Assembly: GCF_000515235.1 (NCBI RefSeq)
Contig: NZ_KI911558.1
Span: forward strand, 1,409,217 to 1,473,216
Origin: Synechococcus sp. CC9616
GTDB lineage: Bacteria; Cyanobacteriota; Cyanobacteriia; PCC-6307; Cyanobiaceae
Direction: 5' to 3'
DNA length: 64,000 nucleotides
Part shown: positions 37 through 3,817 of the stretch, in pieces
Layout: every line of letters starts with the position of its first letter
Position numbering within the stretch: position 1 is the stretch's first letter
Program-made: the position numbers and the translations under genes
The notes under the pieces: model-generated
Database searches by the model: none
Seen by the model: only the letters and a program-made list of their open reading frames with translations
Told to the model about the DNA's origin: nothing

Positions 37-1095
37 CTAACGGCAAAGGGCCTTGAGTTTTGGCAGAGAACACAACTGCTCACCACGGGTGATCTGTCCA
101 TTGAGGAGATCTCTCCAGGGAACAATCCAGTGCTGAGGATCCACGTCGTTGATAACCTCAGCAGCGTCGGGACTGGGAAGGAACACCACAACACGGTCCG
201 CAAGATTGAGGTGATGCCGCAGCCATGGCGTGAAAATCTGTTGTTCAACCAACCGCTGGTAGGACCCATCGGCGACGGCAGCCTCAAAGCCCTGCTGAAT
301 CGCAGCAGCCAGGGGCTGGTTGTTCGGACTCACATAGAAGAAGCCGGTAAATGGATAGGCCAGCAAGACGTGCGGATCCAGAACGGTGTCCGTTGTGGTG
401 TCCGCAACTAGCCGGGCCTCTCCTTCCAGTTCAGCGATGCCGCGAGGAAACAAATGCACCCGGCGGTTGTCGACTAGGCGGAAGAGATCCTGCGAGGCCG
501 CGGTGAAAGTCTTTAAACCGGAGGCATCAAAGATCTCCACATCGCTCCATCCAAAACCTTGCAGCAACACGATGGAACGCAGATCGTCGCGGTTGTTGAG
601 GGTGGCGAGAACGTCGAGCTCATCTACATGACTCCAACCAGCACGCAACCCAAGAAGGCCGCCTGTGATCGGAATCGGAATCGGACGCAAGCGACGGTTA
701 AGTTCAGCATCGGCGCCGTACACACCCACCGTTATCGACATCGTGTTGGCTCCCTGCAAGAGTGCCACCGCCTCATCCTGTGAGATCAGCTCCTCGCTGA
801 GCCCCATGGCATAGGGCTGACCGCTGCTCTCCAACACCAACTTGAGCAGCTGAAATCTGAAGTCGTTCTGATCCTGGCCGGGGTTGCGATCCAAAACGAC
901 GGCCAGGGTGCCCTTGGGCAAAGCCCGCACCTCGTTAGCGGTAAGGATGAAGCGATCGTCAACCTTGGCCCGTCGATAAGTCAGGCGGGGCTGGATCATC
1001 AGTGAACCAACCAGCAGCAGCAGGATCGTGATCGCCGCGGTGATCAGGGTCCACAGTCCAGAGGGTTGTGCCGTGTCGTTGGGGTTTGGGCTCAT
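37..1095 (-). CDS. Membrane-anchored periplasmic binding-protein-like protein, partner of the adjacent channel gene
   Basis: The protein has 352 residues. One N-terminal hydrophobic segment (about residues 15-34) is followed by a soluble domain that reads like a family-3 solute-binding fold. Supporting signs are an early beta strand with a short acidic patch, repeated strand-helix alternation, and a late stretch (about residues 255-290) with the 'AIQQGFEAAVADGSY' pattern typical of amino-acid-type binding proteins. There is no lipobox, so it is probably held by the N-terminal helix and faces the periplasm. Its start lies about 10 bases after the stop of the upstream channel gene on the same strand, so the two are probably co-transcribed. 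The ligand cannot be told from sequence. The fold call is an inference from pattern. Confidence 0.7.
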   Translation of the reverse strand: MSPNPNDTAQPSGLWTLITAAITILLLLVGSLMIQPRLTYRRAKVDDRFILTANEVRALPKGTLAVVLDRNPGQDQNDFRFQLLKLVLESSGQPYAMGLSEELISQDEAVALLQGANTMSITVGVYGADAELNRRLRPIPIPITGGLLGLRAGWSHVDELDVLATLNNRDDLRSIVLLQGFGWSDVEIFDASGLKTFTAASQDLFRLVDNRRVHLFPRGIAELEGEARLVADTTTDTVLDPHVLLAYPFTGFFYVSPNNQPLAAAIQQGFEAAVADGSYQRLVEQQIFTPWLRHHLNLADRVVVFLPSPDAAEVINDVDPQHWIVPWRDLLNGQITRGEQLCSLPKLKALCR

Positions 1096-1105
1096 GAAGC
1101 GACCT

Positions 1106-2179
1106 TCAGGGAATGATCAGGGCAATACCGAAAATCGTGATCCCCACATAGCTCGGCAACAGCAGCACCCGCATCCATTTCGAGATCCTGGCGCTGTAGT
1201 TGCTCAGGTGGTTAACGATGATTTCGTCGGCGGCCACCACGTAGAGAATCCCGAGGAAGATGATCAACTGAAGATTGCCAATGAAGCCCGTCATGGCGGT
1301 CACCGGGAGCTGACCGGCAATGAACACGTAATTACCTCCGGCCGACACCACGGCCGCAAGAATCAGGTCATCGCGGCTGCGGGTGATCAACAAACTCATG
1401 CAGCACAGCCCCACCGCGAGCATGTAACCCAGAAAATCAGGGGCCACAAACAGCAGACTGCGGCGCTGAATCGGTAGATCGAAGGACACAGTGGGTAGAC
1501 GACGGACAGCGACACCTGGCGCTGGCGGACGGCCGAGATCGCTCATCAGGCTCAAATTGGAGGCATAGGCGTTGGGGTCCTTGATCAACCAACCGGGCAG
1601 CAGCAGCCCAGAGTGGATCACATACGGTGCTTGATCGACCACATCCAGATTCACCGCTTGCAGCGGATCCTCAAGACCGATCATGACCTGCAACATCTGG
1701 GCATCGAAGGGATAGCGCTGCAGGCGCCAACGCTTCACGATCGCGGAGCGCACCTTGTACAGCGACCAAACTTCGCCGTTGAGTTGATCACGGCGCACCC
1801 GGTCAAAACGTTGCACGTCGCCGTCGTAGATGCCGTTCAAAACTCGAAGTTGATCACTCGGATTGATCTCGGGGTCACCTTGCCATCGGGTCCAGACGTA
1901 CAACTCGATTGAAAATTGGTCCTGCAGCAGATCGATGTCACTGATGTTGGTGGCATAGGCGCCCACCCGCAGAGGTGGCACAGCAACAGTGACTGGCGGC
2001 TGTTCAGCAGCACCCCAGTCGATGGCTGCCAGTTCCGTCGGCGGCTGGAGCGGAAGCCGATCCGCGGGCTGCACCATGCGCCACCACCCCGATGACAGGA
2101 CGAGTCCGCAGGCGATCACGGCCAACACGAGAGCCATCAGCCTCCGTTGTCGACGGGGCGCACCAGTCAAGGCCAGCAA
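1106..2179 (-). CDS. Pentameric ligand-gated ion channel homologue (Cys-loop/pro-loop superfamily)
   Basis: The protein has 357 residues. An N-terminal hydrophobic segment (about 14-31) is followed by an extracellular beta-sandwich-like domain and four transmembrane segments packed into about residues 240-357. Family hallmarks are the early 'VGAYATNISDID' strand with downstream aromatic W96/W99-x-D, and the loop motif YPFDAQ at residues 156-161. That is the conserved F/Y-P-F-D-x-Q of the superfamily, here without flanking cysteines, as in bacterial members. The M2-M3 region runs into a 'QLP' turn and ends M3 with a 'ADEIIVNHL' pattern resembling the GLIC-type channel. It would assemble as a homopentamer in the inner membrane with the ligand domain in the periplasm. 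The next gene downstream encodes a binding-protein-like partner. Ion selectivity and ligand are unknown. Confidence 0.85.
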   Translation of the reverse strand: MLALTGAPRRQRRLMALVLAVIACGLVLSSGWWRMVQPADRLPLQPPTELAAIDWGAAEQPPVTVAVPPLRVGAYATNISDIDLLQDQFSIELYVWTRWQGDPEINPSDQLRVLNGIYDGDVQRFDRVRRDQLNGEVWSLYKVRSAIVKRWRLQRYPFDAQMLQVMIGLEDPLQAVNLDVVDQAPYVIHSGLLLPGWLIKDPNAYASNLSLMSDLGRPPAPGVAVRRLPTVSFDLPIQRRSLLFVAPDFLGYMLAVGLCCMSLLITRSRDDLILAAVVSAGGNYVFIAGQLPVTAMTGFIGNLQLIIFLGILYVVAADEIIVNHLSNYSARISKWMRVLLLPSYVGITIFGIALIIP

Positions 2180-2240: not shown

Positions 2241-3182
2241 ATGGCCAGAGCAACGCCAGTTCCAAACAGCAGAGGCAACTACGGCGATCCCACGGACACC
2301 AGCCACTGGGATTACCTCACCATCCTGTTGCAACTGCTGGGACGGGTGCGTTTCGACCTGCTGGCGATTGCATTGCTGGCGCTGCTGGAGCTCAGGCTGC
2401 AGATCCCCAAAGTCTGGTTGCTGAGCAACGAGGCGGTGTCGGTGCTGGGCATCGCGATGTCGATCTTCATTGGTTTCCGGAACACCCAGGCGATCAGCCG
2501 ATGGTGGGAGGCACGGACCCTTTGGGAGGACTATCTCAACAGTTGCCGCTACTGGGTGGACGGTCTGAGGGCCTACCTCTCCGACAGCCAGTGGCAGAGC
2601 GAACGGACCCGGAACCTGGTTCGCTTGCAGCTTGCCCAGGCGTGGCAGCTGAATTTCGAGTTGCGCAACTTCTGGCATCCAGACCTGCGTCGGATGCAAG
2701 AGGACCTGCTGGGGCAGCTCAAGCTGCCGCAGGACAGCACGGTGCGCAGCCTCTCCGTCGCGCGATCGCGAGACATCCAGCATCTCCATGCCGACGAATG
2801 GATCACGGAAATGGGGCGTCGCCAACTGGTGGAGATCACGATCCGCTGCAATGAGGCCGTCGGAGGCCTGCAACGGGTGCGCAACACCCCGATCCCACCC
2901 CCCTACGACATGTTCGTGCGCCTGATCAACTGGGTGTTCGGCTCGCAGCTGATCCTTGCCTTCAAGCGCAGTGGCTCGCCGACCACCGGCATCCTGTTGT
3001 TCGTGGGTTTTCTCCTGGCCGAACGCATCGGCGCTTATGTGGAAGGACCCTTCGACCAGGACGGCACCAGCTTTTCTCTACCCCTGAATACGATCTGTTG
3101 TGAGATCAGCGAAGACCTGATGCCAGGCGATCTGGACTACGGCCGATACCGCCCCTGCCGAAACCCGGTGTTCTGGGATTGA
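2241..3182 (+). CDS. Bestrophin-family (UPF0187) anion channel-like membrane protein
   Basis: The protein has 313 residues, a normal length for bacterial bestrophins. Two hydrophobic stretches near residues 30-75 are followed by the family signature 'GFRNTQAISRWWEAR' (about 77-91) and a later membrane pair near 225-265. The C-terminal part holds the 'EGPFDQDGTSFSLPLN' acidic/asparagine region characteristic of the family. Bestrophins form pentameric anion channels; here it would sit in the inner or thylakoid membrane. It is transcribed away from the ion-channel gene to its left, and its stop codon overlaps the sdhC start (TGATG), so expression is probably coupled to the succinate dehydrogenase genes. 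The family call is firm; the physiological ion is not known. Confidence 0.88.
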   Translation: MARATPVPNSRGNYGDPTDTSHWDYLTILLQLLGRVRFDLLAIALLALLELRLQIPKVWLLSNEAVSVLGIAMSIFIGFRNTQAISRWWEARTLWEDYLNSCRYWVDGLRAYLSDSQWQSERTRNLVRLQLAQAWQLNFELRNFWHPDLRRMQEDLLGQLKLPQDSTVRSLSVARSRDIQHLHADEWITEMGRRQLVEITIRCNEAVGGLQRVRNTPIPPPYDMFVRLINWVFGSQLILAFKRSGSPTTGILLFVGFLLAERIGAYVEGPFDQDGTSFSLPLNTICCEISEDLMPGDLDYGRYRPCRNPVFWD

Positions 3183-3817
3183 TGACGGGCCTGTGGAGGA
3201 GCGACCTGATTCGCCTGGGATCAGCCAGCAGCGGCCTGTTGCTGATCCTGTTCCTGGTTGTTCATCTGGCAGGAGTGATTCCGTCCCTGATCGCACCGGC
3301 CGTCTTTGAGGCCTACGCGAGCTCGCTGCATCATGCGATCTGGCTGCCGCTGCTGGAGACAACTCTGGCTGCCGCGGCCCTGCTCCACATCGTTACAACC
3401 CTTCTGAAAGCCATTGGCAATCGCCAGGCGGGCAACAGCGCCGCGCTGATCAGCCGCCGCGGCCAGCCGTTGGCCGCACTGGCGAGTCGCAGCAAGGTGG
3501 CAGCCGGAATCATCACCCTTACTTTTCTGATCATTCATCTGCAGCAGCTGCGATGGCCTCGCCCTCTGGACGGCAACGAACGAGCCGCCCTGATGGCGGT
3601 GCTGCACAACCCCGTGAATGCCACCGTTTACTGCGCAGCAGCCATCACCATCACCCTTCATCTCATTCATGGCGGTGAAGCCGCCCACAGAAACCTCGGC
3701 TGGCTTACACCAACGAACGGCACCATGATTCGTCGTGGCGGACGACTGCTGGCCACCGTTCTGGGAGGCGGTTTTCTGCTGATCAGCCTCGCCTTGACGG
3801 TCGCTGCTGTGTCATGA
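3182..3817 (+). CDS. sdhC: Succinate dehydrogenase cytochrome b membrane anchor
   Basis: The protein has 211 residues when started at the ATG that overlaps the bestrophin stop. Five hydrophobic segments are visible (about 12-32, 45-72, 100-120, 138-157, 178-205), as in the single-subunit diheme anchors of type B succinate:quinone oxidoreductases. Histidines fall inside the first four segments (VVHL, LLHI, IIHL, LHLIH), suitable as axial ligands for two b hemes. It anchors SdhA and SdhB to the membrane and passes electrons to quinone. Its stop overlaps the sdhA start (ATGA). The assignment rests on the five-helix pattern, the histidines and the context, since anchor sequences are poorly conserved. 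Confidence 0.85.

Follow-up and report, generated by a model that had tools for sequence, protein, structure and literature searches.

Co-inheritance of a pentameric channel gene and a binding-protein-like partner gene in Synechococcus suggests a two-part chemical sensor

We know of no natural ligand or job for most bacterial pentameric ligand-gated ion channels (pLGICs). In GluR0-type ionotropic glutamate receptors, periplasmic binding protein domains of type II (PBP-II) control an ion channel whose pore resembles that of K+ channels and is carried in the same chain. GLIC and other prokaryotic pro-loop pLGICs combine an outer beta-sandwich with four membrane helices, and the alignment of pro-loop receptors in the accessible part of PMC4795631 includes Synechococcus. 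DeCLIC has an N-terminal accessory domain that, according to the sections of PMC9897478 and PMC12664993 available to us, influences gating kinetics. In the consulted portion of Tasneem et al. 2004 (PMC549065), stand-alone PBP-II genes are described as sharing conserved neighbourhoods with bacterial ART-LGIC genes, a pattern taken there to mean that the two cooperate in function, and the sequences covered include one from a Synechococcus sp. Here we analyse a gene related to those of animal neurotransmitter-gated channels, together with its partner gene, in a 64,000-nucleotide stretch (the window) of the marine bacterium Synechococcus sp. CC9616 (contig NZ_KI911558.1, positions 1,409,217 to 1,473,216), and find that the two are strictly co-inherited and form a well-conserved member of the arrangement that, judging from that portion, has been known since 2004.

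A first-pass annotation of the window had proposed a 357-residue channel open reading frame (ORF) followed, about 10 bases downstream, by a binding-protein-like gene, and both the coordinates and the 10-base gap were borne out (Table 1). Across 299 genomes of the order, channel matches at E ≤ 0.001 occurred in 40, comprising 21 orthologues (E ≤ 1.7e-71) and 19 genomes with weaker matches only, and the partner occurred in 25, namely the identical 21 genomes with an orthologous channel and four others. In each of the 21 genomes, the partner gene comes immediately after the orthologous channel gene and on its strand, with candidate partner starts about 20 bases or less from the channel stop in most loci (distances do not cover L011, L020 and L040, and L041 is broken). 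The survey of linkage suggested in the first pass thus shows the pair kept together across genomes. The four partner-only genomes carry remnants: an almost full-length gene with an internal stop in G041, and three C-terminal stubs. In G029 (locus L135), only the last ~70 codons of the partner persist, with no channel match; the stub adjoins an sdhC-like ORF, and two short bestrophin fragments lie near it (E 0.009). By eye, the G029 frame starts TLAGVRLR, a beginning also seen in the channel frames of some relatives (L009, for example) and expected if a deletion had run across both genes.

The pair was also present in 11 of 11 loci from Synechococcus relatives, at least four of which overlap with genomes among the 21, with L041 frame-broken in both genes. 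In a sample of the phylum, the partner profile matched 15 of 386 genomes, all inside the window's own family, and three of these matches are the remnants in G029 and G041 and a weak match with a stop in G055 (1.3e-4). Pairwise distances for the channel and for the partner correlated with r = 0.97, a value that none of 2,000 permutations equalled and that in part reflects shared descent. When flanking ORFs were compared across nine stretches, with matches antisense to the pair itself set aside, they were common only within L031 and L036 and within L038 and L134, indicating that at least seven neighbourhoods retain the pair and that it persists as its surroundings change. Thus, channel and partner are a real genomic unit, strictly co-inherited, and at the genomic level the finding is well supported.

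On profile and modelled-fold evidence, the upstream gene is a pLGIC of the Cys-less pro-loop type. The protein has an N-terminal membrane or signal helix, a beta-sandwich outer domain and segments M1–M4; the four C-terminal membrane helices proposed in the first pass were recovered by hydropathy at a laxer cut-off (a stricter one gave three and missed M2) and in the structure model. The YPFDAQ pro-loop could be located as proposed (Table 1; residue numbers follow alignment A1, which begins at residue 2 and holds 20 of the 21 orthologous channels, L014 being omitted for a stop near its end). The pre-M1 arginine R238 is the expected partner of D158 in the coupling of binding to gating (PMC549065, in the portion consulted). 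R268 aligns with an arginine conserved in all 12 channels of a wider set (4 orthologues and 8 distant channels). Because the outer domain of the window channel has zero cysteines, it is a pro-loop receptor rather than a strict (animal) Cys-loop receptor; of the first-pass term 'Cys-loop-type', the superfamily assignment stands and the strict sense does not.

The likeness to GLIC extends from the outer beta-sandwich and four membrane helices to the pro-loop YPFD.Q, the pre-M1 Arg and the LP at the M2–M3 turn. The two nevertheless share only 14–16% identity in the fold alignments among the matches listed, and the window channel has a constant partner gene, unlike GLIC. At about positions 0', 1' and 2' of M2, the window channel reads R-D-D, whereas GLIC reads N-V-T and has E at −2'. 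The acidic ring at 2' suggests that the channel may prefer cations.

Superfamily membership was reached through families and folds, since both proteins fall below every curated Pfam and NCBIfam cut-off as single sequences. For the channel, phmmer with the single sequence ranked GLIC (best E 0.34) after an ATP-synthase chain at 0.27, and the match to the NCBIfam model LGIC_1 (0.0011) was far below that model's 500-bit cut-off. With a profile of the 20 orthologues, the whole-sequence match to GLIC had an E value of 7.8e-6, the best single stretch taken alone scoring 0.0011. In the search with hidden Markov models from Pfam that the first-pass annotation had suggested, only 1 of 20 aligned channels matched PF02931 (E 0.071). 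Foldseek with the channel model returned 1,062 chains at E ≤ 0.001; the best 50 of the 1,062 were all GLIC or GLIC chimeras, with GLIC first at 2.7e-10. In VIA comparisons, the model aligned with the whole GLIC chain (Z 13.2, 259 residues, root-mean-square deviation (rmsd) 9.9) and with a bacterial pLGIC outer domain on its own (Z 13.0, 150 residues, rmsd 2.7); nicotinic and glycine receptors were at most one Z unit from the top matches. The Cys-loop-superfamily identity first proposed for this gene is supported by these profile and fold results.

The partner, which the first pass had called membrane-anchored and binding-protein-like, has one membrane segment and, in its structure model, is a two-lobed PBP-II fold of the amino-acid type. 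Foldseek matched the model to 52 PDB chains at E ≤ 0.001, and the best 50 of the 52 are PBP-II proteins. These are mostly amino-acid binding proteins (best 5.7e-6), but a small number have the PBP-II fold and another function, namely MltF, cyclohexadienyl dehydratase, a kinase sensor domain and glutamate-receptor cores, a GluR0 ligand core among them. VIA aligned the partner with PBP-II over 159 residues (Z 11.5, rmsd 4.5). At the sequence level, PF00497 scored 0.16, below cut-off, against the window partner and matched 6 of 17 aligned partners (best 1.2e-4; alignment A2, 17 of the 21 full partners), and the profile of these 17 reached PBP sequences in the PDB at 0.0044 over a short stretch of ~34 residues only. 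With the single partner, phmmer gave one weak match, to a rhomboid-named chain ('RBL4', 0.93). A profile–profile comparison of partner and channel, made with a common origin in mind, was without similarity (E 0.52), and that idea was rejected.

Family-3 PBPs anchor amino acids through an Arg in lobe 1 and an Asp in lobe 2. We aligned the partner by hhalign with four such proteins (E. coli ArgT and HisJ and two cyanobacterial family-3 proteins); the alignment was colinear over 193 columns and weak (E 0.0044, probability 7.8%; E 0.52 for the channel profile as control), too weak for the partner's ligand to be read off these proteins, and that attempt was dropped.

Other cyanobacteria carry channels of this kind in combination with binding-protein domains. 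With orthologues counted in, 27 of 386 genomes from the phylum matched the channel profile. In G412, two tandem genes encode proteins of 1,187 and 1,183 residues in which PBP-I, channel, membrane helices and then PBP-II follow one another in one chain, with respective matches of 7e-40 and 7.4e-40 to PF13458 for the PBP-I part, 1e-11 and 7e-11 to the family profile for the channel part, and 4.4e-32 and 1.1e-33 to PF01547 for the PBP-II part. When 147 genomes of G412's order were searched with a query of channel membrane part plus PBP-II, most of the 108 matching genomes matched one part only, chiefly the PBP, and G628 and G696 matched across both. G628 has a PBP-I part, a channel and a PBP-II (PF01547), and G696 a channel and a truncated PBP-II (PF01547), so that PBP-II lies behind the channel in at least three cyanobacterial genomes; a further protein (L125, 754 residues) consists of PBP-I and then a channel. 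These fusions show that PBP-II can sit directly behind the membrane part, matching the order of the two window genes. Relative to the stand-alone PBP-II gene adjoining a bacterial pLGIC gene in the consulted portion of PMC549065, the window pair has the same arrangement, and the present analysis adds the co-inheritance counts, the remnants and the PBP-II behind the membrane part. In the open-licence literature, we recognised no description of this pair or of PBP-II behind a pLGIC membrane part.

Elsewhere among the cyanobacteria, some pLGIC genes, in part arranged as tandem pairs, adjoin CheW, MCP or CheB (L109:2234-5461, L110:2864-6099 and L111:2512-5243). Such neighbours suggest that these channels are connected with chemotaxis or phototaxis and agree with the chemoreceptor idea in the accessible part of PMC549065. 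Beside the window pair and its orthologues, CheW, MCP or CheB were absent from those flanking genes that were identified, which are not all of them. One distant channel lies 26 bases behind an ORF that by eye resembles an ABC sugar permease (L127:3558-4673, minus strand). Inspection by eye of 30 genomes found no PF00497 genes beside distant channels, in a search that also overlooks the window's own partner.

Taken together, the conserved pair suggests a two-part chemical sensor. We consider it probable, with moderate confidence, that the partner serves the channel as a membrane-tethered auxiliary sensor subunit and that the pair is a two-gene chemoreceptor; the tool-based support consists of both folds, the pro-loop Asp with the pre-M1 Arg, the co-inheritance, and relatives with PBP and pLGIC in the same chain. 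In the cytoplasmic membrane, pro-loop pLGIC subunits would assemble into a pore, presumably a homo-pentamer, with the beta-sandwich domain facing the periplasm. The tethered PBP-II domain would bind a small solute and, in the role of auxiliary sensor, act together with the outer domain of the channel, and solute binding to the partner would alter channel opening and hence ion flux. A more demanding version, which is possible and which we put forward tentatively, makes the partner an obligate auxiliary subunit that binds the ligand and, as a polypeptide of its own, gates the Cys-less pLGIC; solute sensing would then fall to the binding protein instead of the pocket within the channel.

Such a design has partial precedents. 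GluR0-type receptors likewise place an ion channel under PBP-II control; both their K+-channel-like pore and their single-chain construction are unlike the window pair. DeCLIC shares an accessory periplasmic domain on a prokaryotic pLGIC, but in the sections of PMC9897478 and PMC12664993 available to us that domain comprises two jelly-roll lobes in the same chain, with neither a PBP nor a separate gene. The first-pass phrase 'ligand-delivery or gating subunit' fits the strict co-inheritance and, by analogy, the PBP fusions of relatives, whereas its 'unusual receptor design' must be toned down, PBP-II genes beside bacterial pLGIC genes having been described in 2004 (PMC549065, in the portion consulted). 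We found no test of the mechanism of this arrangement in the open-licence literature. Overall, the first-pass observation is confirmed and its interpretation partly supported; the outcomes it had named as speaking against it, a protein unrelated to pentameric channels, or unlinked genes with a partner lacking the PBP fold, were not found.

Several results weigh against reading the pair as a two-gene chemoreceptor, beginning with the family assignments on which it builds. A single-sequence Pfam search of the channel gave no pLGIC family match. The structure models have modest confidence, with mean predicted local distance difference test values of 54.5 for the channel and 59.8 for the partner, probably lowered because their alignments (A4 for the channel, A3 for the partner) were built from 11 loci and left out more diverse ones (A4 is without L041, whose channel is frame-broken; A3 retains the larger piece of its broken partner). 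The top Foldseek matches combine low template-modelling (TM) scores with large deviations (TM 0.37 by query and rmsd 12.8 for the channel; 0.32 and 9.1 for the partner). Of the amino-acid anchors, the lobe-1 Arg was seen by eye in 12 of 17 aligned partners, and the lobe-2 Asp was unplaceable in the weak family-3 alignment. The fused PBP-II domains belong to PF01547 and the partner is PF00497-like, which makes the fusions a parallel design and not the same pair fused. Scanning ORFs round 22 distant channels (19 of 20 stretches) with the partner profile gave no clear match (best E 0.4), in a scan that could miss a diverged PBP. The charges flanking the partner's membrane helix give no uniform answer on its side: the window partner has zero Lys or Arg before the helix and five after, favouring a PBP domain inside the cell, and net flank charge across the 21 homologues is split, placing the domain outside in 10, inside in 6 and at a tie in 5.

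The alternative that survives best is that the partner binds a periplasmic solute without touching the channel, concentrating or handing over ligand to a channel that alone does the sensing. Such a role was proposed for PBP-II neighbours in 2004 (PMC549065, in the portion consulted), a tether near the channel would increase the local ligand level, and strict co-inheritance requires no contact. Relatives with PBP and pLGIC in the same chain nevertheless favour a physical unit, and we judge delivery without contact to be unlikely. Slightly less probable still is a cytoplasmic location for the PBP-II-like domain, from where it would regulate the channel or assist in its assembly. The five basic residues behind the window partner's helix are in keeping with this, as is a Lys plus Arg count that is greater after than before the helix in 17 of 21 homologues (3 ties), where the 15-residue flank before the helix may extend upstream of the true start; set against it are the balance of net charge toward outside noted above, the C-x8-C conserved in 21 of 21 homologues together with a second cysteine pair common to four of them, as expected of exported disulfide proteins, and fold matches that are mostly exported solute-binding proteins. 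The PBP domain would lie on the periplasmic side, a placement favoured by the cysteine pairs and by the exported nature of most fold relatives. A partner with a degenerate PBP fold, unable to bind any solute and confined to a structural or trafficking role, is very improbable, for although the amino-acid anchor residues are not clearly conserved, 40 columns distributed through the whole domain are invariant across 17 homologues down to 34% identity.

The genes around the pair vary. The window's genome (2.65 Mb, one contig) has three channel-family genes, for a bestrophin, the pLGIC and a TMEM175-type protein, in one row with the partner (Table 1), and, elsewhere, a GluR0-like channel gene (L147:1-870, minus strand; SBP_bac_3 and Lig_chan) that is clipped by the end of its stretch. 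Beyond the sdhC-like ORF lie two genes of the succinate dehydrogenase/fumarate reductase type, for a flavoprotein and an iron-sulfur subunit. An sdhC-like ORF occurs at most 1.5 kb away in 12 of 21 loci. A constant cassette of bestrophin, pLGIC and PBP was rejected, as only 3 of 21 loci (L001, L012 and L016; 1.5-kb flanks) have bestrophin next to the channel. In one genome, a HAMP-SpoIIE gene (L132:2382-4096, minus strand) and then a DUF6272 gene follow the pair on the same strand, and a signalling output through them is possible. In another locus, the pair is convergent with a gene whose product resembles tyrosine decarboxylase and has EF hands (L133:1901-4267, plus strand). ELIC is activated by primary amines (PMC3119659, in the part accessible to us), and this together with the tyrosine-decarboxylase-like neighbour offers an amine ligand as a lead.

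Table 1 Features of the channel–partner locus and of related fusion genes (window coordinates unless a locus is given)
Feature	Position	Strand	Basis or remarks
pLGIC (pro-loop receptor) subunit, predicted	1106..2179	−	357 residues, TTG start; ORF, GLIC profile match, fold
Partner, membrane-anchored PBP-II-like protein	37..1095	−	352 residues, ATG start; ORF, fold
Gap, channel stop to partner start	1096..1105		10 bases
YPFDAQ pro-loop	1697..1714	−	P156 and D158 invariant in 20 aligned orthologues and wider set of 12
Pre-M1 arginine R238	1463..1465	−	Invariant in 20 aligned orthologues and wider set of 12
M2 pore helix and start of M2–M3 turn, S267-P291	1304..1378	−	
R268-D269-D270 in M2	1367-1375	−	About 0', 1', 2' by GLIC alignment; invariant in 20 orthologues
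Single membrane segment of partner, residues 10-36	988..1068	−	Hydropathy; basic patch after
PBP-II core of partner, residues 60-290	226..918	−	VIA fold comparison
C-x8-C (C342, C351) at partner C terminus	43..72	−	Conserved in 21/21 homologues
Bestrophin gene	2241-3182	+	PF25539 1.4e-30; divergent from channel gene, 61 bases off
sdhC-like ORF	3179-3817		Without Pfam match; label from position and hydrophobic look only
TMEM175-type gene	L128:5289-6035, end at window 35	+	PF06736 3e-8; convergent with partner, on its downstream side
G412 tandem fusion genes	L120:401-3964, L120:4051-7602	−	Related forms: L137, L138

As the partner was never found apart from the channel in our sample, remnants aside, the solute it binds would be the first candidate for the channel's ligand. 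The pair offers a test of the cooperation, proposed in 2004, between PBP-II neighbours and nicotinic/GABA-type receptors, and the PBP-II fused behind the channel in other cyanobacteria provides a covalent construct for the same question. If the partner is indeed an obligate gating subunit, cyanobacteria would hold a graded series, from a channel alone, through a channel with a separate PBP-II, to a channel with PBP-I before it and PBP-II after it, and this series would be a natural experiment on how binding proteins gain control of channels of the neurotransmitter-receptor type.

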